Shown in pieces: positions 33,778-60,883 of a stretch of 64,000 nucleotides of DNA. Origin of the DNA: Aurantiacibacter zhengii (GTDB taxonomy: Bacteria > Pseudomonadota > Alphaproteobacteria > Sphingomonadales > Sphingomonadaceae). How positions within the stretch are numbered: position 1 is the first letter of the stretch; every line of letters begins with the position of its first letter. The translations under genes were made by a program, and so were the position numbers. The stretch lies in contig NZ_QXFL01000002.1 in assembly GCF_003584125.1 (NCBI RefSeq), forward strand, positions 310,001 through 374,000, in the 5' to 3' direction. A model generated the notes under the pieces. It saw only the letters and a list, made by a program, of their open reading frames with translations. It ran no database searches and had not been told where the DNA came from.

Positions 33778-34101
33778 TCATGCGACATCCCGCCAGTTGT
33801 AAGATAACGGCACCTCGCGGAAGGCAAAGCGGTCGATATGGCGCTCAAGGGCATCCTTCAGGCCATCTCGCTGGCCATCTTCGCTGGCTTCTATGCGGAT
33901 CAGCAGTTCTTCGCCCTGTGGGTCCAGCGTAACGAGAGCATCGCCTTTCCAGTTCGCACCGCGCGCATCATGGGGGAACGTAACAAGGCGCGCCTCGCCA
34001 TCCTCTTGCACATCGAGGTTATGCGTCCAGTGTTTGCCCAGTTGGGCGGCATACTTGGCAGCCTTGGTCGTCGCCACCCTTGCTTCGGCAACAGAACTCA
34101 T
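33778..34101 (-). CDS. DUF2218 domain protein
   Basis: 107 residues. The ATG overlaps the hydrolase stop as ATGA, which fixes the start; a longer upstream frame is a shadow of the hydrolase. The whole protein matches the DUF2218 pattern: an EARVAT start, LGKHWTHN near residue 21 and a C-terminal HIDRFAFRE followed by L-S-Y-N-W. The family's biochemical role is not established; members often sit near siderophore or catabolic genes. Here it is translationally coupled to the alpha/beta hydrolase. Confidence 0.8.
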   Translation of the reverse strand: MSSVAEARVATTKAAKYAAQLGKHWTHNLDVQEDGEARLVTFPHDARGANWKGDALVTLDPQGEELLIRIEASEDGQRDGLKDALERHIDRFAFREVPLSYNWRDVA

Positions 34102-36174: not shown

Positions 36175-37323
36175 TCAAATTGGCTGTGAAACAACGGCGA
36201 ACATCTCTGCCGTCGCTTGTTGATTGTCGATCGCAGGCCCTTCGCCAATCTGCCCGCGACAGATGGCAAGACTGCTCTCGACGATGTACTTGCAGCGCGC
36301 AAAACGGCGGGCATGCCACGCGCGCAGGGCGCTCTCGATGTCACCATGCCGGCTCAGTTCCTCTGCCAGCACCAAACTGTCCTCAATCGCCATGCCGGCC
36401 CCCTGGCCCAAGTGCGGCGTTGTTGCGTGTACGGCGTCGCCCAACAGAACCACCCGGCCCTTGTGCCAGTCGCCGTCGACCAGCATGACCTCCAGCGGTC
36501 GATAGACCACCGCGTCATCATCGATAATTCCATTCGCAAGTTCGCGAAGCTGGGGGGCGGCATTGTTCAGCCTGCCGCGCATCCGGCCTGCAATCCCCGC
36601 TCGCGCCTCGTGTGCATCGGGCGCTGCAGGCGTGGTTACGAAGATATACATTTGCTCAGCACTCATCGGCACCAAGCCGACCCCGACGGGCCCGTTGTAC
36701 ACCTGCAGCGCGTCGAGACCGGAAGGGCGCGGCAGGTTGTAGCGCCATACCGCCTGGCCAGTCGGCTGCGGACTGGCGACCTCGGGAAACAGCATCGTGC
36801 GCGTTTGCGAATAGATGCCATCGGCGCCGATGACGAGATCGAAGCGCCCCGTATCGCCATCGGACAAAACAGCATCCACGCCCGCACCGTCGTCGACCAG
36901 TTTCTGGACCGTCAGGCCCAGACGGACCTGCGCGCCGCGCCCGATTGCATGATCCGCAAGAACCTTCTGCAACTGCGGTCGCCCGATGCCCACATTGGCC
37001 GGCTTTCCTTCGACCAGCCGAGGCGTTGGAACCCGTGCGGCCTTCGTTCCGTCTGGCAGGAAAATCTCCACCGCATCAAAGCCACTGGCCGCATCGAGGA
37101 AGGAATCGAGGACGCCCAACTGGTCCATCGCGCGGATGACATTGGCTTGCTGTATGATGCCGACACCGTAGACCGACCAGTCAGGATCGCGTTCCACGAT
37201 CGTGACCCGGTGACCAGCGCGGCATAGCGCTATGGCAGCGGAAAGTCCGCCGATGCCGCCGCCGATTACAAGGGTTTCAAGTTGTTCCAATGACCTCTCG
37301 GATGAAGCATCCATGTGCCCCAT
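36175..37323 (-). CDS. Class A FAD-dependent aromatic monooxygenase
   Basis: 382 residues. The N-terminal FAD motif GGGIGGLSAA (21-30), the central D-x-V-I-G-A-D-G-I motif and the C-terminal GD-A-V-H-A-T-T-P motif identify a PHBH/3-hydroxybenzoate 6-hydroxylase/salicylate hydroxylase-like enzyme. It uses NAD(P)H and O2 to hydroxylate a phenolic ring. It is the first gene of a six-gene aromatic operon. An 18-bp perfect-arm operator (37331-37348) ends only 8 bp before the ATG, so repressor binding would block initiation here. An ATG three codons downstream is an alternative start. Confidence 0.9.
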   Translation of the reverse strand: MGHMDASSERSLEQLETLVIGGGIGGLSAAIALCRAGHRVTIVERDPDWSVYGVGIIQQANVIRAMDQLGVLDSFLDAASGFDAVEIFLPDGTKAARVPTPRLVEGKPANVGIGRPQLQKVLADHAIGRGAQVRLGLTVQKLVDDGAGVDAVLSDGDTGRFDLVIGADGIYSQTRTMLFPEVASPQPTGQAVWRYNLPRPSGLDALQVYNGPVGVGLVPMSAEQMYIFVTTPAAPDAHEARAGIAGRMRGRLNNAAPQLRELANGIIDDDAVVYRPLEVMLVDGDWHKGRVVLLGDAVHATTPHLGQGAGMAIEDSLVLAEELSRHGDIESALRAWHARRFARCKYIVESSLAICRGQIGEGPAIDNQQATAEMFAVVSQPI

Positions 37324-37366: not shown

Positions 37367-38827
37367 TCAACGCCCGGAATTGCGATTCTGGCCAAAGAGA
37401 TCCGAGGGCAGGCGCGTAACGCTCAGCAAGGCCAGGGCCAGCGCGGCAGCGATCGCGAAACCCGCCGGTCCGAGTCCCGCAAGCCTGGCCACTGCTTCCT
37501 CGCCTGGGGCCGAAAAATAGACCGCTCCGATAATGGCAATGCCGAGGGCTCCGCCGATTTGCTGCGCCGTGCGCAAGGTGGCGCTTGCCGTGCCGGCGTT
37601 TACGCGGTCGACCTCCGCCACCACGATAGGCCCCAACGGTCCGGACATTGCGCCCATGCCAACCCCTGCCAGGGCAAGGCAGGAGAGCAGTATCAAGCCG
37701 CCGCCATTGCCATCCATGATCGCTCTTGTCGCCAGGAAGGTTCCGGCAATCATCGCTGCTCCGCCAGCAAGCGGCAGCGCCTTCCCGATGCGGGGGAGCA
37801 ATTTGGGCACCAGCAGCCCGATACCCAGCATCACCCCCCCGCTGAACGGTATGTGCACCAGCGCAGTTTCCAATGGAGACAGGCCAAGACCCTGCTGCAA
37901 GGATACCGAAAGTATCAGCAGGAAGCCTATGGACGCGCTGGAAAAACAGAAGGCCGACAGCACGCCCCAGCGAAAGGTGCCGATGCCGAACAACGCAGGT
38001 TCGATAATAGCTGGCCTTCCCTCGGACCGACGAGCACCTGCCCGAAACCAGCCGAAAACGACGACAGTGATCGAAAGGGCCAGCAGGAGGATCAACCCGG
38101 CGGACCACGAAGTTTCAGCGCCGGTAATCAGCGCAAAAAGCAGCCCTCCGAAACCGGCTGCGAAAATCAGCGCGCCTGCCGGATCGATGCGCAAATCGGC
38201 ACCGGGCTCCCGCTGTGGAAGAACGAACCAACCAACAAGGATAGCGCATAGGCCGATCGGAAGGTTGACCAAGAAGACAAGCCGCCAACCAAGGCCGAAA
38301 AGGTCCCACTCAATCAGGATACCGCCGATGATCGGTCCCATGATCGCGGCAAGGCCCACGATCACGCCGAAATAGGCGAGCTTCGTGACCCGCTCCAGCG
38401 GGGTGTAGAGGATCTGGACGATGGCCATGGTCTGCGGCGCCATCACCGCGCCGGCGGCGCCCTGCACCATACGCGCGGCGACAAGCTGACCGGGGGATTG
38501 TGCCAGACCGCAGAACACCGAAGCAGCCACAAATCCCGCGGTGCCGACGAGGAATACCCGCGAATGACCGAACGCATCGCCTAGCCTTCCTCCCAGCAGG
38601 AGAAGCGATCCAAGCGACAGCAGATAACCCGCGACGATCCATTGCATGGCCGCAGGAGACGCAAGCAGCCCGTCCCTGATAGCGGGAAGCGCGGTATTGA
38701 CGATTGTCGAATCGGCGACCTCCAGAACCAAGGCGGTCAGCACAGTCAGGAATGCCGTCGTCTTGCGGCGTTCGGACATATCGTCCGCGACTGCGCGGCG
38801 CGCACTGCCAACCTCGATTTTCGACAT
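37367..38827 (-). CDS. DHA2-family MFS transporter (14 TM, EmrB/QacA type)
   Basis: 486 residues with about 14 hydrophobic segments. The G-x-L-x-D-x-x-G-x-x loop (GGRLGDAFGHSR) and the helix-5 G-P-x-x-G-G motif (GPIIGGILI) place it in the DHA2 drug:H+ antiporter family. It likely exports an aromatic compound or toxic intermediate rather than importing sugar. GGAGG lies before the ATG. It is divergent from the next MFS gene, with an operator-like repeat between them. Confidence 0.88.
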   Translation of the reverse strand: MSKIEVGSARRAVADDMSERRKTTAFLTVLTALVLEVADSTIVNTALPAIRDGLLASPAAMQWIVAGYLLSLGSLLLLGGRLGDAFGHSRVFLVGTAGFVAASVFCGLAQSPGQLVAARMVQGAAGAVMAPQTMAIVQILYTPLERVTKLAYFGVIVGLAAIMGPIIGGILIEWDLFGLGWRLVFLVNLPIGLCAILVGWFVLPQREPGADLRIDPAGALIFAAGFGGLLFALITGAETSWSAGLILLLALSITVVVFGWFRAGARRSEGRPAIIEPALFGIGTFRWGVLSAFCFSSASIGFLLILSVSLQQGLGLSPLETALVHIPFSGGVMLGIGLLVPKLLPRIGKALPLAGGAAMIAGTFLATRAIMDGNGGGLILLSCLALAGVGMGAMSGPLGPIVVAEVDRVNAGTASATLRTAQQIGGALGIAIIGAVYFSAPGEEAVARLAGLGPAGFAIAAALALALLSVTRLPSDLFGQNRNSGR

Positions 38828-38983: not shown

Positions 38984-40240
38984 TTGGTTTCGAGCAATGC
39001 ACAAGGCCGCCAACCCGGGATCCCCCAGGGAATAACAGTCATTCTGGCAGGCTTCCTCCCGATCCTGGCTATCGTCTCGATGTTCCCGGCGGTGGGTGCA
39101 ATGATCGGTCACTTCGCGCCGACCGATCCTTCCGCCGCGACGAAAGTTCCGTCGATGGTAACGGCCCCGGGGCTGGCTATCGCGGTGACTGCTCTGTTCA
39201 TGGGCTTGCTGGTCGACAAGTTCGGACGTCGCAAGCTGCTGCTGATATCGACTTTCTCCTATGGCATCATCGGGGTCATTCCGTTTTTCTTGGAAGACCT
39301 GGACTGGATCTATGCCTCTCGCCTGATGCTCGGCTTCAGTGAGGCAGCAATCCTGACGACGGTAAACACCCTGATTGCCGACTACTGGGCAGAGGAAGGC
39401 CGGCGCCGCTGGCTGACCCTGCAGGGAATGGTCGGTCCGGCCCTATCATCCATCATGATATTCTTCGCAGGCACGCTGACTGCCTGGCGCTGGAACGGCA
39501 TCTTTCTCCTCTACCTGCTGGCCATCCCTATCGCGATCGCGATGTGGCGCTACATGTACGAGCCCGAGAGCGATGCAACCGTGCGGCGCAATCTGGGTAT
39601 GGACGAAGACGCCGATGCTTCGGCCTTCCCGTGGCAAACCGTCATCAGTATCGCGGTGCTAACCCTTTTCAGTTCCGCGATCTACTATGTCTTCATCGTC
39701 AACGGCTCCGTCGTGTGGGAGGAACTTGGCATCGACGATCCGGAAAGCATCGGTCAGATCACCGCCCTCCCCAGCCTCTTCATTCTGGCGGGCGCAGGCC
39801 TGTTCTGGCTGCTGGGGCGGAAAGGATGCAGCTTCCGCGTTCAGGTCGCCACCTTCCTTTCTCTGCTGGGCGCTGGACTGGCGGTGATGGGTCTCACCAC
39901 GAACTGGCAGGGCATGATCGCCGGGATGGCGCTGCAGCAAACTGGGGCTGGCATGGCAATTCCGACGCTGATTGCCTGGGCTCAGAGCCGCCTGCCCTTC
40001 GCCCATCGCGGTCGCGGTATGGGCGTGTGGACAGCTACCTTCTTCTTCGGTCAGTTCTCTTCACCGCTTGTCGTCAGTGCGCTGCGAGGGCAGCTCGGCT
40101 CGATGCAGGCCGCTTTCCTGGCGATGGGCCTGATCGGGCTGGCCGGTGCAGTGGTGTTCTTCCTGGCGCTCGGCCGGAAGCGCGAGACTTCGGAGGAGCA
40201 TCTAGTGGAAGCCGTGGCGGAAAAAGGCCAGGTGCCCTAG
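38984..40240 (+). CDS. MFS transporter (12 TM)
   Basis: 418 residues with 12 predicted membrane segments and the MFS loop motif LVDKFGRRKLL. The TTG start is supported by AGGGAGAG about 6-13 nt upstream, and there is no ATG near the N-terminus. The closest family is uncertain (ACS-like/aromatic acid or metabolite uptake), but its position divergent from the exporter and under the same operator region suggests substrate uptake. A strong terminator follows 28 bp after the stop. Confidence 0.85.
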   Translation: MVSSNAQGRQPGIPQGITVILAGFLPILAIVSMFPAVGAMIGHFAPTDPSAATKVPSMVTAPGLAIAVTALFMGLLVDKFGRRKLLLISTFSYGIIGVIPFFLEDLDWIYASRLMLGFSEAAILTTVNTLIADYWAEEGRRRWLTLQGMVGPALSSIMIFFAGTLTAWRWNGIFLLYLLAIPIAIAMWRYMYEPESDATVRRNLGMDEDADASAFPWQTVISIAVLTLFSSAIYYVFIVNGSVVWEELGIDDPESIGQITALPSLFILAGAGLFWLLGRKGCSFRVQVATFLSLLGAGLAVMGLTTNWQGMIAGMALQQTGAGMAIPTLIAWAQSRLPFAHRGRGMGVWTATFFFGQFSSPLVVSALRGQLGSMQAAFLAMGLIGLAGAVVFFLALGRKRETSEEHLVEAVAEKGQVP

Positions 40241-40320: not shown

Positions 40321-42012
40321 TCAGATTGCGCCCGAACGAAGCAAGTCTACCGCCCGGTCCGCCGCACGTGCGGTCAGCGCCATGTAAGTAAGCGAGGGGT
40401 TCTGGCAGGCAGAAGAGCTCATCTGCGCGCCATCGGTGACGAACAGGTTGGGGATGTCGTGCGCCTGGCTCCAGCGGTTGAGCACACTGGTCGCCGGATC
40501 CCAGCCCATGCGCGCGCCGCCCATTTCGTGAATGGCGCTGCCACCCGGTCCGGGCCTGTCGAAGCCCATGATGACCCTGCCCCCTGCATGGGTGAGCATT
40601 TCGGCGGCATCGGCCTTGGCCTGCGCCAGCGCCGCGTGCTCCTCCTTGCCGAAAGCGAAGTCGATGTTCAATTGCGGGATGCCCAGCGGATCGGATTGCG
40701 CCCGGTCCAGCGTCAAGCGGTTGCGCGCACGAGGCACGCAGTCGGCAAAGGCAACCAGCACGACCCGCCACGGACCCGGCGGCTGTAGCGACGCCTTGTA
40801 ATCTGTGCCAACGCCAGCTTCTCGCTTGCCGCGCGTCCAGCCCGATTGCAGTGCGCCGCCCTGATAGGAGTATCCGCGCGTGTGGCCTACCCCGTCCATC
40901 TCGTCCATGTTGCGATAGCGTGCAATTACCACACCGGTCGGTCGGTTGCCGTAGGACGTCACGTCCTCGAAGCCGGGCATCAGCGCGATAGCCGAGAGGG
41001 TGGATGGATGGTCCATGATGTGTGTGCCCAGCACCCCGCTGGTATTCGCCAGGCCGTTAGGCATGGCTTCGGTGGCGGAGTTGAGCATCAGGTGTACGGA
41101 ATTGAAGCTGCCGGCGTTCAGGAAAATCAGCCGGGCGGTCGCCTGTGCGCGTGTTCCGTTCTTACGGTCGATCCAGCGGACACCTGTCACGCGGCCCGTA
41201 GCCGCGTCGTAATCGACCTTTTCGACCACTGCATCGGTAATCAGGGTGAGATTGCCGGTCGCTTCGGCTGCGGGAAGCGTGCTCGATTGCGTTGAGAAAT
41301 AGGCACCGTAGGAGCAGCCCCTCGCGCAGATCGAACGCGCCTGGCACTGGCCCCGCCCTCTGTGCGGCTGCGTCAAGTTCGCGGTCCGGCCAACGGTAAG
41401 AACCCGCTCGGGCCAGTTGCCAAGAATGCGCTCGCGCGTCGCCTGCTCGACCGCGTTCAACGGCCATGCGGGCAGGAACTGGCCGTCCGGCAACTGGTCC
41501 AGCCCTTCCGCCGCCCCGGCAACACCGATGAAATCCTCCACCTTGTCATACCAAGGGGCGATGTCCTCGTAGCGGATCGGCCAGTCCGTGCCATGCCCGT
41601 CGCGCTTGTTCGCTTCGAAATCGTAATCCGACCAGCGATAGCTCTGCCGGCCCCAGGTCAGCGAACGCCCGCCCAGGTTGTAACTGCGGAACCAGTTGAA
41701 ATCCGTGCCCGCCTTTGTGGCGTAGGGGTTTTCGGCATCGTTGACGAAATGGCCCTGGGTATATTCCGTGAAATGCCGGTTGAGCATCTGGACCGGATAC
41801 TCGCGCTCATACAGCTCCGCATTGCCCACCCCGCGGAAGGGCATGTCCCACGGCTTTTTCATTTCGGTCTCGTATCCCGTCTGGTGCGGGATATCGCGGC
41901 CCCTTTCCAGCATGAGAACCTTCAGCCCTGCCTCGGTCAGTTCCTTTGCGGCCCAGCCGCCGGAAATGCCGGAGCCCACGACGATGGCGTCGAATTGCAT
42001 ATCTGCTGCCAT
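40321..42012 (-). CDS. GMC flavoprotein, probable glucoside 3-dehydrogenase large subunit
   Basis: 563 residues from the ATG at 42012, which follows the small-subunit stop by 1 nt and has GGAG upstream; an upstream in-frame extension is a shadow. The FAD motif VVGSGISGG is at 11-19 and the GMC catalytic pair is H495 (HEMGGARMG) and N538 (CQNPSLTY). A GMC catalytic subunit paired with a Tat-signal gluconate-2-dehydrogenase-3-like subunit is the layout of bacterial FAD glucoside 3-dehydrogenases, which oxidise C3 of glucosides. The related C-glycoside 3-oxidases also belong to this family. Export would rely on the Tat subunit, as the large one has no signal. The usual cytochrome c partner is absent from the window. 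Confidence 0.85.
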   Translation of the reverse strand: MAADMQFDAIVVGSGISGGWAAKELTEAGLKVLMLERGRDIPHQTGYETEMKKPWDMPFRGVGNAELYEREYPVQMLNRHFTEYTQGHFVNDAENPYATKAGTDFNWFRSYNLGGRSLTWGRQSYRWSDYDFEANKRDGHGTDWPIRYEDIAPWYDKVEDFIGVAGAAEGLDQLPDGQFLPAWPLNAVEQATRERILGNWPERVLTVGRTANLTQPHRGRGQCQARSICARGCSYGAYFSTQSSTLPAAEATGNLTLITDAVVEKVDYDAATGRVTGVRWIDRKNGTRAQATARLIFLNAGSFNSVHLMLNSATEAMPNGLANTSGVLGTHIMDHPSTLSAIALMPGFEDVTSYGNRPTGVVIARYRNMDEMDGVGHTRGYSYQGGALQSGWTRGKREAGVGTDYKASLQPPGPWRVVLVAFADCVPRARNRLTLDRAQSDPLGIPQLNIDFAFGKEEHAALAQAKADAAEMLTHAGGRVIMGFDRPGPGGSAIHEMGGARMGWDPATSVLNRWSQAHDIPNLFVTDGAQMSSSACQNPSLTYMALTARAADRAVDLLRSGAI

Positions 42013-42013
42013 G

Positions 42014-42691
42014 TCAGCCAAACTCCACCCCGGTCCAGTCACTGGACCATGCCCGGCTGCCGGGCTCCAGCGGGACGACCGGATCGTAGCGGCCGGGGAC
42101 AAGTTCGAACCTCAGTTCTTCCGAACCGCCTACGCGCGAGGTGTAATAACCGGTGAGGATCAATGCCTTCAGCTTGCGCCACGGGTGGGCGTCGCCGCCC
42201 TCGGCGAAAGCCTCGCTATCGAGCTTGGCGAGGGTTCTCGTGCGTGCGTCAGTATCCTGCCGGATAAAATCGCCGTTAGCACTACGATCGAGTGTCGCTT
42301 CGAGCCAGTTGACGTAGCGCAGGCTGCCGTCGGGTCGTTGATATTCCGGAAAGGTCCAAGGCATCTCGGCAGAGCCAACCGGCTCCCGCGTGCCCTCGAG
42401 ACCGTGAGCGAGTGCCACGATAACGAAATCCCCCACGCCCACGTCGCCGGCACCCGGCGTGTCGGTAGCAGGCAGAACGGCCTGACTGACCAGTCTCATC
42501 ATCAGGCGCTGGCGTTCCGTGGGCGCATCGCGCTCGTCCAGGTCGGACAGTGTGACACCTGCCACAGGGATTCCCACAGCCAGCGCGAACAGGGCTGCCC
42601 CCGCCAGGAAATCGCGGCGTTGCCAGCCGGTGGACTGTTCAGGGGTTTCAGGCAATTCCCATGATCCGCTTGTTAAGTTCGCGGTCCGCAC
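42014..42691 (-). CDS. Tat-exported gluconate 2-dehydrogenase subunit 3-like small subunit
   Basis: Up to 225 residues. A twin-arginine signal (QRRDFLAGAALFALAVG, about residues 24-40) is followed by a Gluconate_2-dh3 domain (PF13618 type), the hitchhiker subunit that carries the GMC flavoprotein to the periplasm. The longest frame starts with GTG and overlaps the TIM-barrel gene by 44 nt. A TTG at 42655 would cut the overlap to 8 nt and leave a normal Tat n-region. It is 1 nt from the catalytic subunit, so the two are co-translated. Confidence 0.82.
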   Translation of the reverse strand: MRTANLTSGSWELPETPEQSTGWQRRDFLAGAALFALAVGIPVAGVTLSDLDERDAPTERQRLMMRLVSQAVLPATDTPGAGDVGVGDFVIVALAHGLEGTREPVGSAEMPWTFPEYQRPDGSLRYVNWLEATLDRSANGDFIRQDTDARTRTLAKLDSEAFAEGGDAHPWRKLKALILTGYYTSRVGGSEELRFELVPGRYDPVVPLEPGSRAWSSDWTGVEFG

Positions 42692-43703
42692 CGCCCGCGG
42701 CGAAATCGTCGAACGCGTGCTCGGTCACACGAATGATATGGTCTCGGATGAAAGGCGCGCCTTCCGCGGCGCCCTGCTCGGGGTGCTTAAGCGCGCATTC
42801 CCATTCCAGCACGGCCCAGCCGTCGAATTCATTGGCGGCCATCTTGGAAAAGATGCCTCCGAAATCGACCTGCCCGTCGCCGAGTGAACGGAAACGTCCG
42901 GCACGGTCCACCCAACTCTGATATCCACCGTAAACGCCCTGTCGGCCCGTGGGATTGAACTCCGCATCCTTTACGTGGAAGCAGCGAATTCGCTCGTGGT
43001 AGATGTCGATAAAGTCGAGGTAGTCGAGCTGCTGCAACACGAAATGGCTAGGATCGTAGAGTATGTTCGCGCGGGGGTGGTTTCCGACCCGTTCGAGGAA
43101 CATCTCGAATGTCACCCCGTCGTGAAGGTCCTCGCCCGGATGAATTTCGTACGCCGCATCGACGCCGCATTCGTCGAAGTGATCGAGGATCGGCTTCCAT
43201 CGCCCCGCCAGTTCCTCGAAAGCGTCCTCGATCAATCCGGCGGGTCGCTGCGGCCACGGATAGACGTACGGCCATGCCAGTGCCCCTGAGAAAGTTGCGT
43301 GCCGATCAAGACCAAGCCTGCGGCTAGCGGTGGCGGCGTGTCTCACCTGCGCCACGGCCCACTCCTGCCGCGCCTGCGGATTACCGCGGACGTGCTGCGC
43401 CGCGAAGCCGTCGAAGGCGGCATCGTACGCGGGATGGACGGCCACCAGCTGCCCCTGCAAATGGGTCGACAGTTCGGTAATCGACAAGCCATGGCTTTCG
43501 ACGACGCCCTTCACCTCGTCGCAGTAATCCTGGCTTTCCGCGGCCTTTTCCAAGTCGAAGAGACGCGCGTCCCAGCTGGGTATCTGGATGCCCTTGTAAC
43601 CAAGGCCGGACACCCATTCGCAAATCGCATCCAGCGAATTGAACGGTGCCTTGTCCCCGGCAAACTGGGCGAGAAAAATAGCCGGTCCCTTTAGGGTTCT
43701 CAT
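42648..43703 (-). CDS. Sugar phosphate isomerase/epimerase-like TIM barrel
   Basis: 351 residues of the xylose-isomerase-like TIM-barrel (AP_endonuc_2) superfamily. Likely metal ligands are in YEIHPGED, ILYDPSHF, CFHVKD and VLEWEC. Proteins like this are routinely paired with Gfo/Idh oxidoreductases in clusters for 3-keto sugars and inositol-like compounds. The ATG overlaps the Gfo/Idh stop as ATGA. Isomerisation, epimerisation or elimination of a 3-keto-glycoside are all possible; the sequence alone does not decide. Confidence 0.82.
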   Translation of the reverse strand: MRTLKGPAIFLAQFAGDKAPFNSLDAICEWVSGLGYKGIQIPSWDARLFDLEKAAESQDYCDEVKGVVESHGLSITELSTHLQGQLVAVHPAYDAAFDGFAAQHVRGNPQARQEWAVAQVRHAATASRRLGLDRHATFSGALAWPYVYPWPQRPAGLIEDAFEELAGRWKPILDHFDECGVDAAYEIHPGEDLHDGVTFEMFLERVGNHPRANILYDPSHFVLQQLDYLDFIDIYHERIRCFHVKDAEFNPTGRQGVYGGYQSWVDRAGRFRSLGDGQVDFGGIFSKMAANEFDGWAVLEWECALKHPEQGAAEGAPFIRDHIIRVTEHAFDDFAAGGADRELNKRIMGIA

Positions 43704-44833
43704 GCGGAAATCCTTTCTTGGCGGGGCAACTGCGTCCATCCGGCCTGTTCTGCATTCGCGCTGACGCTGGTGTCGATGAAAAGCATGGAGCGCATACCCT
43801 CATCCAGTCCCGGAAGCATCGGCGCATCCTGCCCGCGCAAAAGGGCGGCAAAGTCGCGATAGAGGTTGGCGAACGCTTCGAGATAGCCTTCCGGATGTCC
43901 GCCCGGTGTCCGGGTGACGGATGTTGCTGCCGGCCCCAGCGATGAATCGCCTGCGCGCAGAAGCTCGGTCTTCCCGTCGATCTTGTGCCAGGTTACCGTG
44001 TTCGGCGTTTCCTGGTGCCAGACCATCCCGCCGCTCTCGCCATAGACGCGGATCCGCAAACCGTTGAGTTCGCCAACTTCGATCTGGCTTGCCAGCAGAA
44101 CACCGCGCATCCCGTTCTCGAACCGCAAAAGCACCGTGCAATCGTCGTCCAGCTTTCGGCCCGGAACGACCGCGGCAAGATCCGGAAAAACCTGCGAAAC
44201 ACGCTGCCCGGTAACGAATTCGGCCAGATTGAATGCATGGACGCCGATATCGCCAATGCAGCCCCCGGCTCCCGCCCGAGCGGGATCGACGCGCCATTCC
44301 GCCTGCTTGCCCTCGGCCTCTCCCGCCAGCCAACCTTGCGGGTATTCCACCACGACCTTGCGAAGACCGCCCAACGCGCCCGCCGCAATCCGCTCCCGCA
44401 TTTCGCGCACGAGGGGATAGCCGGTGTAGGTGAATGTGAGGGCATAGGGCCGGCCAGCTTGTCCCACTGTCGCGGCAAGCTCCTTGGCCTCTGCCAGCGT
44501 AGCCGTCATCGGCTTGTCGCTGATTACCGGATACCCCGCTTCGAGAGCTGCGCGAACCGACGGCAGGTGATTGTGGTTGGGAGTTACAACGCAGACGAAA
44601 TCCATACCGTCGTCGCGCTGACGCTCGGCTGAAAACATGGTCGCCAAATCGGGATAACCGCGTTCCGGATCGATCGCGTAATCCACTGCGGCCTGTCGGC
44701 TACGCCCGGAATCGGAAGAGAATACACCGGCTACCAGCTCAATCTCGCGATCGAGTTCTGCTGCGATGCGATGGATCGGGCCTATGAATGCGCCGGGGCC
44801 ACCGCCAATCATGCCCATGCGAAGGCGTACCAA
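43700..44833 (-). CDS. Gfo/Idh/MocA-family NAD(P)-dependent oxidoreductase
   Basis: 377 residues. N-terminal Rossmann motif GGGPGAFIG, a D-K-P variant of the family's E-K-P catalytic lysine (SDKPM) and the G-D-I-G-V-H-A motif with the catalytic Asp/His are present. I chose the TTG at 44833 because GGAG stands 8 nt upstream; the next ATG (44818) lacks a ribosome binding site and cuts into the nucleotide fold. Related enzymes such as DgpA oxidise C3 of aryl-glycosides or reduce 3-keto sugars. It heads a four-gene unit with its own operator. Confidence 0.87.
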   Translation of the reverse strand: MVRLRMGMIGGGPGAFIGPIHRIAAELDREIELVAGVFSSDSGRSRQAAVDYAIDPERGYPDLATMFSAERQRDDGMDFVCVVTPNHNHLPSVRAALEAGYPVISDKPMTATLAEAKELAATVGQAGRPYALTFTYTGYPLVREMRERIAAGALGGLRKVVVEYPQGWLAGEAEGKQAEWRVDPARAGAGGCIGDIGVHAFNLAEFVTGQRVSQVFPDLAAVVPGRKLDDDCTVLLRFENGMRGVLLASQIEVGELNGLRIRVYGESGGMVWHQETPNTVTWHKIDGKTELLRAGDSSLGPAATSVTRTPGGHPEGYLEAFANLYRDFAALLRGQDAPMLPGLDEGMRSMLFIDTSVSANAEQAGWTQLPRQERISA

Positions 44834-44851
44834 AATTTCTCTCCACTTATT

Positions 44852-44869
44852 TTATAATTATCGTTCTAA
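44852..44869. promoter_or_regulatory. TetR-type operator, site 3
   Basis: TTATAA-TTATCG-TTCTAA, one mismatch in the left arm. It stands between the GH3 stop and the Gfo/Idh start, 18 bp upstream of the latter. Confidence 0.7.
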
Positions 44870-44903
44870 TACGCGCTCAGGGACTTGGCAAGACACCCCA
44901 GGC

Positions 44904-47291
44904 CTAGAGACCATCGGGTAATGCTTGCGGATCGACCTGTACTGCCAGCCCGGCGTCTTCGGCAGTTCGGGCAACTCGCACCTTGCAGTGGCCCGTTGGA
45001 AGCTGCCATCCAGCCTTGCTCCAGCAGGCGAAGCGGCGCGCAGGCAATCGAACGGTTACGCGTTCCGCTGCGCCAGTCGCCAGCGTGACCTTCGCAAAGC
45101 CCAGCAGCGCGGTTTCCTGACCGTCGCGGTAGACCTGTACGATCTCACTGCCTGTCCGCGTCCCTGTGTTCTCGATGCGAACCGATACGCCATCGTTCTC
45201 GGCCCGAGCATCGTCCCAGGAAAAGCTGGTGTAACCCGCTCCTGCGCCGAGCGTATGTCGCGCCGATTTGCCCGCTGCCAGGATTCCGCGGTAACCAACC
45301 TGTATACCTTCGGAGTAAGCGAGCTTTCCTTCAGCCCCCGGTTTCAAGGCAAAAGCCGGATAGTCCGCCTCGCTTTGCGCGATGGAAACCGGCATTCGTC
45401 CGCCGGGCTCCCTGTCTCCAGCAAGCACCGCGGCAATCGCATTGGCGAACCCTTCGCCGGGATACCATGCGGCGATGTGCGCCGCGGCCCGGTCTTCCCA
45501 GGATGCATCGTAGGCGTGACCGATATTGGCAATCACCACCGTTCGGGCATTGGCGGCGCACACCCGGTCGATCAGAGTCGCCTGCTCTGCGGCGATCTGC
45601 GTATCGGGCCGGTCCTTGCTTTCCACGGAACTGTCCGAGGTTTCGCCGACGAAGAGGAACACGGCATCGGCTTTTGCGGCGACGTCTTCGGCGGCGCGCA
45701 GCAATTCGCTTGCGCTGCCCGGCTCGCGGATGCCGTACCATAGCCCGTGCACGCGCGCAGCCTCGAAGGGAAATTCGACAACCACTTCGACCTGCTGGCC
45801 GTGTGACAGGACCAGCGGGGCAAACTCGCTGTCGCCGGATTTCAGCACGCCCATCGTATCGCCGGCCGGTATCGCTGTCGTAGCGACAACCTCCTTGCCA
45901 TCGACCAGCATCCGCGCCTTGCCTGTCGCGCCCAGATGGAAACTGTGCTCGCCATCCTTCTGCGCGCGATAGATGCCGGTTGCACGGATCGAGCCGCCGG
46001 TAGCGAAGTCCGCCTGGTCGTGCATCCCGGTAAACCAGACGAGCGAATTGGTATCGCGCGTCTCGCGCGTCATGGGCTCGCCCGAAAAGTCGTCCGAGGC
46101 GAAATATTCGAGCGTCATCCCGGCACTTGCGCCATCGCCTATGTCGCGCGCGGGCTCAACCGTCATGAACGGGAGACGCGGCGCTGGGTCCACGCCGGGT
46201 GCGAAAAGGACTTCGCAGTGCTCACCGTAACGCGCGCGGACTGTTTCTTCGGGTGTTGGCAAATCCGGGCGAACGGAAATCTTGGCGAAGGTGCCACCCT
46301 GAAAACACGGCGCCGCAGCGTTTGGACCGATGATTGCGACCGATTGGACCGTGGACGGATCGAGAGGGAGGATCCCGCCGTCATTTTTCAGAAGGACGAA
46401 GCCCGCAGCTGCTGCCTCGACGAGCAGTTCACGAGCTGCTGCATCGTCATAGAAAGAAGTTTTTGCGCCGGTTGCGCGCTTGGCCAGCCCCGCCACCCGC
46501 CTTGCGGCATCGTCGACGCGCGCCTGCAGAACCTCGCCTGCCGCAACGGCTTCGGCTGCCTTGGGGCCAAGGAACCTGAATGGGCCAGGCATTTCCAGAT
46601 CGAGCCCGGCGTTCAGGGTCGGCGCGGTGGAATGGGTGCCGAACCAGTCCGACATGATAGCGCCGCGATAGTCCCAATCGCCCTTCACCACCTCTGTCAG
46701 CACGTGATGCTGCTCTGCGCAGTAATCGCCGTTTACCCGGTTGTAGGCCGCCAGCATACCCGCGCAGCCGGCATCGGCGGCGAATTCGAAAGGCAGAAGA
46801 TAGATTTCGCGCAAGGTCCGCTCGTCGACCTGCACGTCCACGCTGTCGCGATCGGTCTCACTGTCGTTGCAGACCAGATGCTTGGCGACGGAAGCCGTAC
46901 CGGTCGATTGCAGGCCCTTGATCCAGCACGCGCCAAGAACGCCCACCAGGACCGGGTCTTCGGAGAAATATTCGAACGCCCGCCCTGCCAGCGGACTGCG
47001 CGCGAGATTGATGTTGGGCGCGAGCACGGCATCCACATTACGCTCGACGGCTTCCTGGCCGACCAGTGCACCGATGCGCCGAACGAGGTCGCAATCCCAG
47101 CTCGCCCCCAGCGCGGTTGCGCAGGGGCTGAGCCGGGCGATGTCGCGTTCGTCGACCTTGCCGCTGGCGATACCCATCGGCCCGTCGCTCATGGTGAACG
47201 ACGGGATTCCAGCGTAAGGTACGGCAACGCTCGACCACATCGCCGCGCCCGCGGTGAGCGCGGCGGCGTCTTCGTTCTTCAATTTGTCCAT
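44904..47291 (-). CDS. GH3 beta-glucosidase with PA14 insert
   Basis: 795 residues, no signal peptide, so cytoplasmic. The GH3 barrel carries KHLVCND and the nucleophile D215 in IMSDWFG. A PA14-like insert (about 385-520) sits in the alpha/beta sandwich domain and a fibronectin-III-like domain closes the C-terminus (from about 690). This layout is usual for bacterial aryl-beta-glucosidases. It follows the beta-subunit gene by 7 bp and would cleave O-linked glucosides, so the island could serve both O- and C-glycosides. The acid/base glutamate was not assigned with certainty. Confidence 0.9.
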   Translation of the reverse strand: MDKLKNEDAAALTAGAAMWSSVAVPYAGIPSFTMSDGPMGIASGKVDERDIARLSPCATALGASWDCDLVRRIGALVGQEAVERNVDAVLAPNINLARSPLAGRAFEYFSEDPVLVGVLGACWIKGLQSTGTASVAKHLVCNDSETDRDSVDVQVDERTLREIYLLPFEFAADAGCAGMLAAYNRVNGDYCAEQHHVLTEVVKGDWDYRGAIMSDWFGTHSTAPTLNAGLDLEMPGPFRFLGPKAAEAVAAGEVLQARVDDAARRVAGLAKRATGAKTSFYDDAAARELLVEAAAAGFVLLKNDGGILPLDPSTVQSVAIIGPNAAAPCFQGGTFAKISVRPDLPTPEETVRARYGEHCEVLFAPGVDPAPRLPFMTVEPARDIGDGASAGMTLEYFASDDFSGEPMTRETRDTNSLVWFTGMHDQADFATGGSIRATGIYRAQKDGEHSFHLGATGKARMLVDGKEVVATTAIPAGDTMGVLKSGDSEFAPLVLSHGQQVEVVVEFPFEAARVHGLWYGIREPGSASELLRAAEDVAAKADAVFLFVGETSDSSVESKDRPDTQIAAEQATLIDRVCAANARTVVIANIGHAYDASWEDRAAAHIAAWYPGEGFANAIAAVLAGDREPGGRMPVSIAQSEADYPAFALKPGAEGKLAYSEGIQVGYRGILAAGKSARHTLGAGAGYTSFSWDDARAENDGVSVRIENTGTRTGSEIVQVYRDGQETALLGFAKVTLATGAAERVTVRLPARRFACWSKAGWQLPTGHCKVRVARTAEDAGLAVQVDPQALPDGL

Positions 47292-47298
47292 CGAAATA

Positions 47299-47691
47299 TC
47301 AGGCTGCCAGCGCCAGCTCTTTGGTGTCCTTCGTAGTCGGCACGAACGGCAGATACGATACGCGCATGCGCACGCCGAATTCCACCGTGTGCGTGCCTTC
47401 GCCGAAACCGCCGTCTTTCAGCGCGATGATTGTTGCCTTCTCTCCGAAATTCCACCGGTCGTCGTACACGGTTTCCATCTCGTCGAGAGTATAGGTTTTA
47501 CCGCGCACCTGGAAACGCACATCCTCGCGAGGGACCTGCTGCCCGTCGATGGCGACCTGGATATCCTCAACCATCGAGAGGCCGAGGCCGCGATAATAAG
47601 GCAGTCTGCCAAGGAACTTCACGCCCTTCACCGCACAGCCGTCTTCGTAATTCTCGAGGCTTCCCTCGACGATCATCTTGTTGTCCATCAT
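47299..47691 (-). CDS. DUF6379 protein, C-glycoside deglycosidase beta-subunit-like
   Basis: 130 residues, a small all-beta protein. LPYYRGLGLSMVE (30-42), followed by an I-x-V-x-[IV]-D-G-x-x-V stretch and a C-terminal M-R-V-S-Y-[LM]-P, matches the DUF6379 pattern of the beta subunits (DgpB/CarB/DfgB type) of C-glycoside deglycosidases. These subunits have no known activity alone and form a complex with a TIM-barrel alpha subunit. The alpha-like gene lies 14 bp upstream here, so the pair is intact. An AGGA precedes the ATG. The family match is by eye. Confidence 0.82.
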   Translation of the reverse strand: MMDNKMIVEGSLENYEDGCAVKGVKFLGRLPYYRGLGLSMVEDIQVAIDGQQVPREDVRFQVRGKTYTLDEMETVYDDRWNFGEKATIIALKDGGFGEGTHTVEFGVRMRVSYLPFVPTTKDTKELALAA

Positions 47692-47705
47692 GGTCGAGTA
47701 TCCTT

Positions 47706-48716
47706 TCAGGCTGCGGTCTTGAGAGCAGGGGTTTCGGTTTCGCCCAGAAGACGGGCGAGCATTACCTGCTGGCGGCGAACCTGCTCGACACTGTCGGGCT
47801 CCATCGCATCCTCGACCCAGCGGTTGCCTTCGTATTCGGAGCAGATGTAGCCGTCATAGCCGCCCTGTTTCAGAACACTCACGATCTCATCGTAGGGGAT
47901 GGATGGCTCCACATAATCTTCGTTCATCTGGTAGAACTTGCCATGAATGTTGTGGATGCGCGGCATGTAGTCGAGCATGCGCTTCGGCTCGAAAGCGGCG
48001 TTGTGGCGCATGGTTTCGGCCATGCCGATGGCCGGACCTTCCCCCCCCATCTCGCGCACATTGAGGATGACGTACTCCGAAAGAACCCGGTCTTCGTACG
48101 CTTTCTCGATGTAATCAGCGATGTCCTGACGCACGCCCATGCGGAGGAACTTCTCCTTCCACACGGGCGGGAAGGCGTGGAGGAACATCCCCATGTCGGG
48201 AAGGAAGCCGAGCGCATCGGAGCCGGACTTCTCGTAAGCTTCCGCATGGCGGACGATCCATGGGTGGTCGAAATGCAGCGGGGCGTGCACCTCCACAAGG
48301 ATCTTGATGTCCTTTTCCTCTGCGTAAGGCGCCGCATCGACCAGCACCTGCGGGTCGATCGAAACGAGCGCGCGGATGAATTTCATTCCCAGGCGGGCGC
48401 CGAAATCGATATCGCGCTTCACGCTGGCGACCTGCTCGTCATGCGGCATCATGCGGCCCTTGTACCGCTTGTAATCGAGCATGAAGTCGTGGCTGACCGG
48501 TGTGCAATCATACTTCTGGATCAGCGAGTGCCAGTTCTCGATCGCCTCGTCCTCGACACCCACTTCGGGCCAGCCCCAGAAGGTCTGCTCGCCGATGATC
48601 TCGATGCCGTTCGCGCCGAGTTCGGCTGAAGTCCGAATGCAATCCTCTAGGTCCATTTTGCCCTGAAAAGTTTCGTTCTGATAGGAATAGAGGCTCACGC
48701 CCCGCTTGATCGCCAT
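47706..48716 (-). CDS. TIM-barrel protein, C-glycoside deglycosidase alpha-subunit-like
   Basis: 336 residues. The ATG at 48716 has GGAGG 6 nt upstream; an ATG two codons earlier would abut it. The fold is xylose-isomerase-like, with candidate metal ligands E142 (LVEVHAP), D174 (LPDMG), H258 (IHGKFY) and E294 (SEYEG). H144 next to E142 is a candidate general base. KRGVSLYSYQ at the N-terminus and GYDGYICSEYEGNRW near the C-terminus are typical of the alpha subunits (DgpC/CarC/DfgA type) that break the C-C bond of 3-oxo-C-glycosides. It is followed directly by the DUF6379 partner. O-glycoside elimination is an alternative activity for this family. Confidence 0.83.
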   Translation of the reverse strand: MAIKRGVSLYSYQNETFQGKMDLEDCIRTSAELGANGIEIIGEQTFWGWPEVGVEDEAIENWHSLIQKYDCTPVSHDFMLDYKRYKGRMMPHDEQVASVKRDIDFGARLGMKFIRALVSIDPQVLVDAAPYAEEKDIKILVEVHAPLHFDHPWIVRHAEAYEKSGSDALGFLPDMGMFLHAFPPVWKEKFLRMGVRQDIADYIEKAYEDRVLSEYVILNVREMGGEGPAIGMAETMRHNAAFEPKRMLDYMPRIHNIHGKFYQMNEDYVEPSIPYDEIVSVLKQGGYDGYICSEYEGNRWVEDAMEPDSVEQVRRQQVMLARLLGETETPALKTAA

Positions 48717-48800
48717 GGTCATCCTCCGGGCTCGGCTGCCAATTCGCCGGCTCATTATTGCAAAAAGAGACAACGCGGCTTGCATCGCTCTTCGATCTAA

Positions 48801-50224: not shown

Positions 50225-51220
50225 TCAGTCTTCGGTCCGGTACTCCTCCGGAATATCGTAGGCCGCAGCCTTGTCGTAAGGCGGGATGGTGACCTCGCCG
50301 GTGGCAGCCCATTCGGTTCCGCGAACAATCAGGGTCCTGACGCCGTCGAACATCAGAGTGTCCGGTCCGTGGCCAAGCGTGATCGAGAACACGCGGCCTT
50401 CACCATAATCCTGCACCCACACCAGAGGGTTCGCGGCATCCATGCCTTCCATCCGCGCCACGTTGTCTGCGGAATAGGCTTCGAAGTCGTATTTCGGCCC
50501 AGCCATTTCAGGCGTGTAATTGGCGGAATCGTCAAAACCCGTCGCCAGTACGGTGACATCCGCATCCGGCGCGAACTCCATGTTGGTGTACATATCCTCC
50601 ATGAAAGACCAGACGTAGCGCCGCAGGCCGCGCGTGATCGGATGATCGGCATCGGTCATGCGCACCCGGAACCCGTCGGGCGGAGAACGGCGGCTTTCGC
50701 CCGGCACCATGGTAGCGCCCAGCAGTCGCTGATACTCCGGAATGTCGAACCCCCAGGTGAAGCTGGAGTGAAAGGCTACCAGGCCACCGCCCTGGTCGAC
50801 GTAGTCGTAAAGTGCCTGAAAGGTTTCGGGCGACCAGAGCGTCTGCTCCTCATCACCGTAGTTCCACCTACTGGCGTAGTTCAGGAATACGACGTCGTAC
50901 TTCCGAAGCATCTCCAGCGTGCCGAACTCGAAATCTTCCACGACCCGCACATCGAACCGGCCCGTGTCCTTCAGGTGCGTGCGCAGGCGATTGTTCACGC
51001 CGGTCCAGTCATGCTCGTAAGTGTTCTCGCCGGATATGATCAATACGTCGATCAAGTCTTCCTGCGGCACGACCGGCGTGACCACCCGCTGCACCGTTTC
51101 GGGCGGCGCATAGGGCTGGGAGTCCACCGTGGTCGGTATGTCAGCCACCGGAACTTCCTGCGCGGCGACGGTCAAGGACAGCGTCATGGATGCAAGGATC
51201 GTCGAGGCCATAAATCTCAT
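50225..51220 (-). CDS. ThuA-like protein with signal peptide
   Basis: 331 residues: an N-terminal signal peptide (about 20 residues), then a class I glutamine amidotransferase-like ThuA domain with VLIISGENTYEHDW, GGGLVAFHSSF and DADHPITRG. ThuA proteins are linked to catabolism of 3-keto-trehalose and other 3-oxidised sugars. A ThuA-like gene here supports the 3-keto-glycoside reading of the island. The signal peptide makes it periplasmic, matching the periplasmic dehydrogenase. The ATG overlaps the transporter stop as ATGA. It ends the TonB-receptor operon and is followed by the terminator. Confidence 0.85.
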   Translation of the reverse strand: MRFMASTILASMTLSLTVAAQEVPVADIPTTVDSQPYAPPETVQRVVTPVVPQEDLIDVLIISGENTYEHDWTGVNNRLRTHLKDTGRFDVRVVEDFEFGTLEMLRKYDVVFLNYASRWNYGDEEQTLWSPETFQALYDYVDQGGGLVAFHSSFTWGFDIPEYQRLLGATMVPGESRRSPPDGFRVRMTDADHPITRGLRRYVWSFMEDMYTNMEFAPDADVTVLATGFDDSANYTPEMAGPKYDFEAYSADNVARMEGMDAANPLVWVQDYGEGRVFSITLGHGPDTLMFDGVRTLIVRGTEWAATGEVTIPPYDKAAAYDIPEEYRTED

Positions 51221-52617
51221 GCGGTTTCTCCCTCAGCTGGATCGGACCAGTCCGTTCTGCCCTCTCCTGTAGTGATGTCTTTGCTGCCACCCATCGGCCA
51301 GAAAAGGACTGCCACGGCCTGCAGGATCAGCATGACACTGGGGACGGCGTAGTAAGCAAGCCGAATATCGCCGCGGGCCGCATCGGTTACGCTCGCAGGA
51401 TCGTATGCCGCGAATGCGAGAACATATGCAGCAAGGGCGCTGCCCACGGCCATGCCCACCTTGGTCGAAACGCTGATGCCGGACGACAGCAACCCCTCGT
51501 ACCGAACGCCGTGCTTGGACTGGTGGTAATCGACCGATTCCGCAGCCATCGTGAAGATTGCGGTGATCGTGATCGACGTAGTGATCGAGAACAGGAAGTA
51601 TGGAAACAGCAGCGGGGGAACGCCTATTCCAGCCAACTGCCAGTCCGCAGCGCTATCGATTAGCGCCATGAAGGCGAACAGGACGAGCGAGACTGCGATG
51701 GCAGCAACGCACCCAGCCCTGATCCCCGTCCGCGCAAGGATCGGCGGTGCGATGAAAGCGGCGATAAGCAGTCCTCCCGATACCATGGGAAGCATGACAG
51801 GGATCAGCCAGGGCTTGCCGATGACATCCTTGGCGAAGAAGATCGTCAGGCCCAGCATTACCCCGAAGCGAATGAAGTAGAGCAGGCAGAATGAAAAGCA
51901 GACCAGCCAGGCCCGGTTGCGCACCATTTGCATGATCGCCGGGAACGCCTTGAAATCGGAAGCGACTGCCTTGTCTTCAAACCTCTCGCGACAATTGCGG
52001 AAAAGCAGGATCAGGGCGACAAGTGAAATCGCCGCAAAAACCAGCGTCGTCCATGTGAAGCCGGCCTGCAGGTCATCGCCACCGAAGACAGCGACGAGCG
52101 GCATGGTCGCAGCCGTGCCCAGGATCACTGATATCGATGTGCCGACGGATCGTGCACCCCCCAGTTTCAGTCGCTCTTGGGTGTCGAGTGTCATCATTGG
52201 CATCAGGGCGGTGTATGGGATCGACCCTGCGCTCAAGAGAATGCCGAGCAGCTTGAAGGTGACGAAAGCGTAGGCCAGCTGCCACCCCTGCGCCATGTCC
52301 GGCACGTGAAAGACCGCAATAAAAACCAGCGCGTAGGGAACTGCGGTGAACAGGAAATACGGACGCGTGCGCCCCCACCTCGTACGTGTCTTGTCGACCG
52401 CAATCCCGAACAGCGGATCAATTACCGCATCCAGCAGGCGGGCAACGAGAAAAATCGTACCCACGGCCTCTGCAGGAAGGCGCACGACATCGGTGTAGTA
52501 GAAGAGCAGGAAAGCGCCTGCCATGTTGTATGCCAGGCTGTAGCCAAGATCGCCCCCGCCGTAGCTGAAGCGTTCGAGGAAGGTCAGCTTGCGCCCCTGG
52601 CTCGCCGCCTCAGCCAT
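51217..52617 (-). CDS. GPH-family (MelB-type) glycoside:cation symporter
   Basis: 466 residues with 12 predicted membrane segments. The LLDAVIDPLFGIAVDKTRTRWGR loop with conserved aspartates is characteristic of glycoside-pentoside-hexuronide symporters. They import sugars and glycosides with Na+ or H+. I chose the ATG at 52617 (MAEAAS); the upstream frame is a shadow of the isomerase gene and gives no sensible protein. It overlaps the TIM-barrel gene by 8 nt. It probably takes the oxidised or native glycoside across the inner membrane. Confidence 0.88.
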   Translation of the reverse strand: MAEAASQGRKLTFLERFSYGGGDLGYSLAYNMAGAFLLFYYTDVVRLPAEAVGTIFLVARLLDAVIDPLFGIAVDKTRTRWGRTRPYFLFTAVPYALVFIAVFHVPDMAQGWQLAYAFVTFKLLGILLSAGSIPYTALMPMMTLDTQERLKLGGARSVGTSISVILGTAATMPLVAVFGGDDLQAGFTWTTLVFAAISLVALILLFRNCRERFEDKAVASDFKAFPAIMQMVRNRAWLVCFSFCLLYFIRFGVMLGLTIFFAKDVIGKPWLIPVMLPMVSGGLLIAAFIAPPILARTGIRAGCVAAIAVSLVLFAFMALIDSAADWQLAGIGVPPLLFPYFLFSITTSITITAIFTMAAESVDYHQSKHGVRYEGLLSSGISVSTKVGMAVGSALAAYVLAFAAYDPASVTDAARGDIRLAYYAVPSVMLILQAVAVLFWPMGGSKDITTGEGRTDWSDPAEGETA

Positions 52618-60880: not shown

Positions 60881-60883
60881 GGG

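Follow-up and report, generated by a model that had tools for sequence, protein, structure and literature searches.

We focus on an island of genes around a predicted C-glycoside deglycosidase (CGD) in a 64,000-nucleotide stretch of the Aurantiacibacter zhengii genome (contig NZ_QXFL01000002.1); the whole stretch is called the window, and positions are counted from its first letter. C-glycosides resist hydrolysis. The core of the island is a run of seven consecutive genes at 40321-48716 on the minus strand, in the order CGD alpha, CGD beta, GH3, Gfo/Idh, TIM barrel, Gluconate_2-dh3 and GMC; neighbouring genes overlap by up to 44 nt (one start is uncertain) or lie up to 70 nt apart. An initial annotation had drawn the island around this block alone. 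The genes it named are indeed adjacent open frames on the minus strand and the block is real, but its limits omit ring-degradation genes on both flanks. The GH3, Gfo/Idh, second TIM barrel, Gluconate_2-dh3 and GMC assignments were likewise borne out at family level by Pfam.

47706..48716, minus: CGD alpha subunit, a TIM barrel with metal and base site (PF01261; alignment to 8qvc and 7bvr)
47299..47691, minus: CGD beta subunit, DUF6379/CGDB (PF19906)
44904..47291, minus: GH3 glycosidase with PA14 domain, beta-glucosidase-like (Pfam; NCBIfam BetGlucosiCelf0468, 448.8 bits, under the cut-off of 1300)
43700..44833, minus: Gfo/Idh/MocA oxidoreductase, proposed 3-keto-glucose reductase (Pfam and PDB sequence matches)
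42648..43703, minus: putative 2-hydroxy-3-keto-glucal hydratase, the second TIM barrel (8ro4_A match)
42014..42691, minus: Gluconate_2-dh3 small subunit, start uncertain (PF13618, 69.8 bits; twin-arginine motif RRDFLAG)
40321..42012, minus: GMC FAD dehydrogenase, proposed glycoside 3-dehydrogenase (Pfam GMC and PDB matches)

The deglycosidase operon

Membership of the CGD family is well supported for the pair predicted at 47299-48716 on the minus strand. A profile search matched the beta gene end to end to PF19906 (CGDB) with 132.8 bits against a cut-off of 27.6, in agreement with the DUF6379 protein that had been suggested there. The alpha gene lies 14 nt away in an open frame at 47706-48785 that encodes a TIM barrel (PF01261), its true start probably being the ATG at 48716 (MAIKRG). 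All eight PDB sequences matched by the alpha protein at E <=0.01 are labelled as CGD alpha chains or fused CGD. It is 47.5% identical to the Deinococcus aerius CGD (8qvc_A) over 303 aligned positions, a figure that rests on three of the four alignment rows, and 32.8% identical to PuCGE (7bvr_A) over 293. When the protein was modelled as a single chain with AlphaFold2 (mean predicted local distance difference test, pLDDT, 85.5), the first 16 PDB matches in Foldseek were all CGD chains, and the best of them was the D. aerius enzyme (template modelling scores 0.91/0.95), whose entries 8qvc and 8umc are titled Deinococcus aerius C-glucosyl deglycosidase.

The active site can be followed residue by residue. 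AgCGD2 is described as binding its metal through Glu147, Asp179, His269, Lys271 and Glu305, with His149 and Glu307 as the catalytic residues, and His143 and Glu301 are given as the PuCGD equivalents of this pair (Mori et al., PMC8563793); the remaining PuCGD positions were derived from the constant offset of six relative to AgCGD2. Numbered from MAIKRG, the window alpha subunit carries E142, D174, H258, K260, E294, H144 and E296, identical to PuCGE at 7/7 positions, and all seven residues are invariant in nine aligned alpha proteins, including a Niallia protein at 42%. E142, D174, H258 and E294, which the initial annotation had singled out for comparison with solved deglycosidases, are metal-ligand positions, and H144, K260 and E296 complete the published set. 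In the beta subunit, Y33 aligns with Tyr39 of PuCGE beta, a residue proposed to assist C-C cleavage (PMC10628242). The reading of the two genes as a deglycosidase alpha/beta pair is thus upheld both by family and by residues.

The beta family is uncommon in Sphingomonadales: PF19906 was present in 4/147 sampled genomes of the order, A. zhengii included, and its own genome holds one match. A search of viral contigs with the pattern for the alpha subunit gave no match. Additional cleaving enzymes were considered. The genome has no PF06439 match, which removes a DUF1080 3-ketoglycoside hydrolase as a candidate, and a small TIM barrel at 52610-53374 found no support as OGE, the single-chain eliminating enzyme of Agrobacterium tumefaciens, since none of its 32 listed matches is labelled as such (labels only were compared). 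On the plasmid pNL2 of Novosphingobium aromaticivorans, a second CGD pair and a DUF1080 protein were seen beside the first pair (L046 21606-23004, 19501-20364), and some sphingomonads may hold several 3-ketoglycoside cleavers.

Oxidation is predicted to fall to a GMC dehydrogenase whose small subunit bears a twin-arginine motif, which sets it apart from DgpA of gut bacteria and CarA/PurA of soil bacteria. CarA and PurA are described as oxygen-using oxidases and DgpA as a Gfo/Idh enzyme (PMC10807413, PMC12724307, PMC8563793), with CarA belonging to the pyranose-oxidase branch (PMC10807413). The closest PDB relatives of the window GMC protein are the large subunits of fructose and glucose dehydrogenases (142-150 bits). 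A CarA/PurA-type oxidase is disfavoured by the scores of the best fructose dehydrogenase (149.9 bits) and the best pyranose oxidase in the PDB (47.2 bits), as well as by the presence of a Gluconate_2-dh3 partner. The proposed role has precedent because GlycDH, a flavoenzyme expressed with a TAT protein, is reported to oxidise flavonoid C-glucosides (PMC10628242). GMC and Gluconate_2-dh3 were both present in 20/35 CGD loci longer than 19 kb.

The sugar released by cleavage would be recycled by the two remaining enzymes. The second TIM barrel matches 8ro4_A, deposited as 2-hydroxy-3-keto-glucal hydratase, over its full length with 602 bits and 72.2% identity, and on this ground a role as a cleaving enzyme is rejected. 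The best PDB match of the Gfo/Idh protein is 3v5n (330.8 bits), labelled merely as an oxidoreductase, whereas the DgpA2 structure reaches 41.9 bits and rank 15 of the 24 matches listed, which disfavours a DgpA-type C3 oxidoreductase. In A. tumefaciens, an operon of GlycDH, OGE, hydratase and Gfo is described for oxidation, elimination, hydration and reduction (Bitter et al., PMC10628242), although the hydratase evidence is there termed preliminary. We read the Gfo/Idh protein of the window as a reductase because it is not DgpA-like, because it adjoins the hydratase and because this is the order proposed for the A. tumefaciens operon; together the two enzymes most likely return the cut sugar to glucose. 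The initial annotation had proposed an exported FAD dehydrogenase pair and two possible C3-oxidation routes feeding one cleavage pair. The former stands at family and residue level, as GMC with Gluconate_2-dh3 and its RRDFLAG motif, and with the CGD pair it is the part of that interpretation we retain. The dual route is not supported, given the hydratase-like barrel and a Gfo/Idh protein unlike DgpA.

The hydratase-Gfo pair also occurs beside sugar ABC transporter genes on Azospirillum and Phyllobacterium plasmids. In Azospirillum brasilense (L048 7001-12068) the two genes are accompanied by a sugar ABC transporter and xylAB, and no cleaving enzyme is annotated within the 15 kb viewed; the two steps perhaps serve another purpose there.

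Putative ring-degradation genes and their distribution

The operon is flanked below by FMO, VOC, alpha/beta hydrolase, DUF2218, cupin and FAH genes, and above by a luciferase-like monooxygenase (LLM), an FMN reductase, a TonB receptor and pca genes.

38984..40240, plus: MFS transporter (PF07690)
37367..38827, minus: MFS transporter (PF07690)
36175..37323, minus: group A FAD monooxygenase (FMO), proposed FdeE/IfcA-like A-ring hydroxylase (PF01494; NCBIfam PRK06847, 456.7 bits against a cut-off of 372)
35259..36164, minus: VOC extradiol-type dioxygenase, proposed FdeC/IfcB-like (507 bits to 3b59_A)
34098..35255, minus: alpha/beta hydrolase, 2,6-dihydroxypseudooxynicotine (DHPON)-hydrolase-like (best PDB match 2jbw, 61.9 bits)
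33778..34083, minus: DUF2218 protein, start uncertain (PF09981)
33100..33669, minus: cupin (PF07883)
32144..33103, minus: fumarylacetoacetate-hydrolase-family protein (FAH; PF01557)
50225..51220, minus: ThuA-domain protein (PF06283)
51217..52617, minus: GPH sugar:cation symporter, start estimated from the open reading frame (TIGR00792, 295.8 bits)
52610..53374, minus: small TIM barrel, hydroxypyruvate-isomerase-like, start estimated (profile and PDB sequence matches)
54807..57128, minus: TonB-dependent receptor (profile match)
57211..57794, minus: FMN reductase, split over two frames (PF03358)
57791..58891, minus: luciferase-like flavin monooxygenase, LLM (PF00296)
58981..59661, plus: TetR regulator (PF00440)
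59696..63924, minus: protocatechuate genes (pcaDC, pcaG and pcaH above NCBIfam cut-offs, pcaB and a pcaJ-family gene just below); the last may start past 63924, its frame being open to 63999

The downstream genes appear to be of the kinds known from flavonoid A-ring degradation. PRK06847, the model matched by the FMO, is a "hypothetical protein" subfamily, the label of 3b59_A states no function for the VOC, and extradiol NCBIfam models match the VOC below their cut-offs. As a set, FMO, VOC, DHPON-like hydrolase and cupin are all present together in the window, as they are in the fde cluster of Herbaspirillum and the ifc cluster of Variovorax, likened here by described gene kinds (PMC11069340). 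The ifc cluster of Variovorax V35 is reported to hold two cupins, an FAD monooxygenase, a glyoxalase that shares 65.8% identity with FdeC, and a hydrolase which, like that of the window, resembles 2,6-dihydroxypseudooxynicotine hydrolase (PMC11069340). IfcA is described as 8-hydroxylating isoflavone aglycones and as inactive on isoflavone glycosides (PMC11069340). A sugar at C6 or C8 would block A-ring hydroxylation, which would give a reason for coupling deglycosylation to the ring genes.

The association was followed across genomes. Patterns built on one protein, which by design favour close relatives, retrieved 43 loci with the alpha subunit (41 in sphingomonads, one in an alphaproteobacterial assembly and one in Niallia). 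Counts over 42 genomes omit the Niallia locus (L043), and several of these genomes are metagenome assemblies of 2.1-3.4 Mb in which absences may be gaps. The chosen cut-offs were 1e-80 for VOC, 1e-90 for FMO and LLM, and 1e-100 for CGD alpha and hydratase. The background sample consisted of the 147 Sphingomonadales genomes, 4 with PF19906 and 143 without, and all Fisher tests ignore kinship. A close relative of the VOC gene was found in 38/42 CGD genomes against 6/143 non-CGD Sphingomonadales genomes, and within the order sample in 4/4 against 6/143 (p 1.1e-5). The hydratase was present in 39/42 CGD genomes and, in the order sample, in 4/4 against 27/143 (p 0.0017). The genomic tie of CGD to flavonoid-type ring degradation is strong in this sense, and physical linkage is weaker than co-occurrence. 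The alpha and VOC genes lie less than 20 kb apart in 16 of the 37 genomes with both (on the same contig in 19), and alpha and hydratase do so in 19/38. Within the ring cluster, VOC and FMO are less than 2 kb apart in 22/28 cases, and VOC lies at most 500 nt from the alpha/beta hydrolase in 29 of the 31 VOC-bearing loci. Twenty VOC-centred regions were drawn from the 38 VOC genomes, mainly where VOC is far from CGD alpha or on another contig; in 6/20 a second CGD type (42-49% identity) stands within 7 kb of VOC, one of them showing an alpha gene alone.

Several named relatives carry related loci. Croceicoccus marinus pCME4A9I reproduces almost the entire island with its gene order, except that no FMO adjoins the VOC and that a second CGD pair follows FAH. 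Novosphingobium sp. P6W places CGD, GH43, Gfo, hydratase, MFS, GMC, LysR, FMO, VOC, hydrolase, cyclase and FAH on one strand, while in Sphingobium TomTYG65 a single strand holds hydratase, Gfo, FAH, cyclase, hydrolase, VOC and FMO. In another phylum, Deinococcus aetherius pDAETH-1 has a single-strand set made up of both CGD subunits, GMC, VOC, cyclase, FAH, hydrolase and two FAD oxidoreductases; upstream of it lie LLM, FMN reductase and GH3.

The LLM is tied to the CGD, being present in 21/42 CGD genomes and in 0/143 non-CGD Sphingomonadales genomes; within the order sample the contrast is 2/4 against 0/143 (p 0.00056). It also occurs with GH3 and ring genes on Deinococcus and Pseudomonas plasmids. 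Among the 42 CGD genomes, 18 have FMO alone, 11 LLM alone, 10 both and 3 neither (Fisher one-sided p 0.010). Of the 11 LLM-only genomes, 6 have an FMO of 37-38%, below the cut-off, in the same locus, and 3/11 had more FMO candidates than were scored. These two facts soften the contrast, and for this reason we lowered an estimate that was not high to begin with: we consider it unlikely that the LLM (57791-58891) and its FMN reductase form a novel two-component flavin hydroxylase for the freed flavonoid, which would open the A ring or attack a different one and would either replace the FdeE/IfcA-type FMO or work alongside it. The AlphaFold2 model of the LLM has a pLDDT of 62.

Divergent FMO genes past a TetR gene were observed at L008 1960, L021 1994, L023 2648, L027 2742, L031 60 and L032 2009, in loci that carry LLM and have no closer FMO. 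They are 37-38% identical to the window FMO (36% in L021) and may be the ring hydroxylase of LLM-carrying loci. In Streptomyces NBC_00342 (L074 12001-16301), LLM, FMN reductase and GH3 are consecutive genes close to pcaHGBD and a GPH symporter, and no CGD is annotated within the 25 kb viewed.

Proposed pathway and its alternatives

The island probably serves the catabolism of plant flavonoid glucosides, C-linked ones in particular, without hydrolysis of the sugar bond. In the proposed pathway, the Tat-exported GMC protein and its small subunit would first oxidise the glucose at C3 in the periplasm, and the 3-keto-glycoside would enter the cell via the GPH or an MFS carrier. The cytoplasmic, metal-dependent alpha/beta deglycosidase would then carry out a beta-elimination across C1-C2, with His144 as the base, releasing the aglycone and 2-hydroxy-3-keto-glucal. 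The latter would be hydrated by the second TIM barrel to 3-keto-glucose, which the Gfo/Idh enzyme would reduce to glucose. The aglycone, its C6 or C8 now free, would be hydroxylated on ring A by FMO and/or LLM; the VOC dioxygenase would cleave it, and the product would go on to the alpha/beta hydrolase, cupin and FAH proteins. Ring-B fragments may pass through protocatechuate to the pca genes. Family assignments, active-site residues, gene order and co-occurrence are established here from sequence, fold and genomic context. The assignment of substrates, the order of steps, the direction of the Gfo/Idh reaction, the cellular location and the joint action of the parts in one pathway are the interpretive elements of this scheme.

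A number of observations weigh against it. The CGD and VOC genes are not within 20 kb of each other in 21 of the 37 genomes with both, 18 of which have them on different contigs; of the 4 CGD genomes in the order sample, 2 have VOC close to CGD, one has it about 51 kb away and one at a great distance. VOC is missing from 4/42 CGD genomes, and FMO reaches the chosen cut-off in just 28/42. The CGD locus of pNL2 gave no match to the window FMO, VOC or hydrolase in 37 kb. The VOC proteins of the Deinococcus, Pseudomonas and Burkholderia loci are merely 23-33% identical to that of the window (23% in D. aetherius). The GMC proteins of P6W and D. aetherius are just 28% and 25% similar to that of the window, so the type of oxidiser varies among CGD loci, and the hydratase is not specific to the CGD pathway because of its presence in 27/143 non-CGD genomes. 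Finally, IfcA is described as inactive on flavones, flavanones and flavonols (PMC11069340), and FdeE alone as broad, acting on several flavonoid classes (PMC11303751).

PuCGE is reported to cleave both 3-keto C- and O-glucosides, and most plant glycosides carry an O-linked sugar (PMC10628242); the main substrate therefore need not be a C-glucoside. The pair could mainly serve polyphenol O-glucosides, with C-glucoside cleavage as a side activity, and a beta-glucosidase-like GH3 gene inside the operon would suit this. The GH3 enzyme could, however, already handle O-glucosides; moreover, the closest solved relative is titled C-glucosyl deglycosidase, and the beta subunit is retained together with the tyrosine proposed for C-C cleavage. 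We consider an O-glucoside specialist plausible but not likely. The aglycone could also be another phenol, such as a xanthone, an anthraquinone or a simple aryl compound, with the ring genes serving that phenol or being unrelated. Known CGDs are reported to accept xanthone and anthraquinone C-glucosides (PMC8563793) and the VOC is placed just in the broad extradiol group, but FMO, VOC, DHPON-type hydrolase and cupin match the gene kinds described for ifc (PMC11069340) and VOC co-occurs strongly with CGD, which makes a different phenol rather unlikely. A role of the Gfo/Idh enzyme as an additional C3 oxidiser in the cytoplasm, working by DgpA-like transhydrogenation, is quite improbable. The reaction may be reversible, yet the protein scores 41.9 bits to the DgpA2 structure against 330.8 bits to 3v5n, Gfo adjoins the hydratase also on plasmid stretches with no annotated CGD, and the Gfo of the A. 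tumefaciens operon, likened by description, is proposed to reduce 3-keto-glucose (PMC10628242).

Read as a pathway for flavonoid C- (and O-) glucosides, the island can be set against known systems. The closest in cleavage is the D. aerius CGD (8qvc, 8umc), whose beta subunit is of the same family as that of the window and whose substrates are reportedly 6-C-glucosyl flavones and mangiferin. The related D. aetherius locus has no hydratase match in 41 kb, whereas the window has a hydratase. The A. tumefaciens system (GlycDH-AtOGE-AtHYD-Gfo) has in common with the window a flavin dehydrogenase with a TAT protein, a hydratase, a Gfo/Idh enzyme and the proposed order of steps, as far as it is described (PMC10628242), but cleaves with a single-chain OGE instead of a two-subunit CGD. 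The gut dgp/dfg and soil CarABC/PurABC systems share the CGD alpha/beta pair acting after C3 oxidation and differ in their oxidisers, which are the Gfo/Idh enzyme DgpA or the oxidases CarA/PurA instead of a dehydrogenase with a Gluconate_2-dh3 subunit. The fde and ifc clusters are described for aglycones (PMC11069340), while the window sets the same gene kinds beside a C-deglycosylation operon. In Catenibacillus, a gut member of the Bacillota, C-deglycosylation and flavonoid aglycone degradation are reported in one organism (PMC11170127).

The window holds a real CGD operon whose four-step sugar route would be known chemistry in a new combination. CGDs in Pseudomonadota (PMC8563793) and PurABC homologues in Deinococcota (PMC12724307) have already been published, and the papers on soil and gut C-deglycosylation cited here deal with the oxidation and cleavage steps. 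Among the matches listed from the open-access literature, no paper was found that connects sphingomonad CGDs with ring-cleavage genes or with a dehydrogenase of this type, although this is only weak evidence that none exists. Parts of the picture may be contained in the study of the D. aerius gene cluster and in that of the hydratase. If the proposed pathway is correct, sphingomonads use a single island to oxidise C3 with a dehydrogenase, break the C-C bond, recycle the sugar and cleave the ring. This suggests how soil bacteria may recycle flavonoid C-glucosides completely, with the sugar taken off and returned to glucose and the aromatic part broken. Through the island, named cultured strains would also provide candidate enzymes for a third class of C-glycoside oxidiser, as well as for a flavin hydroxylase not yet characterised.

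Other features of the window

Scans for promoters and terminators gave counts not clearly above those of shuffled sequence. Within the island, a sulfatase-family gene at 53380-54762 on the minus strand might act on sulfated polyphenols; one of the 43 related loci has such a gene in its flanks. The FMN reductase at 57211-57794 is read in two frames when compared with its Croceicoccus relative, with pieces 82% and 75% identical, and represents either a sequencing error or a broken gene. At the other end of the window, an open frame of at least 8217 aa on the minus strand (1-24653) runs off the left edge. Three 2000-aa pieces of it were scanned and contain He_PIG/Big_9 Ig-like, CARDB and Laminin_G_3 domains. 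The frame is neighboured by genes for a protein kinase and for an outer membrane efflux protein (OEP), and it looks like a giant surface or secreted protein.

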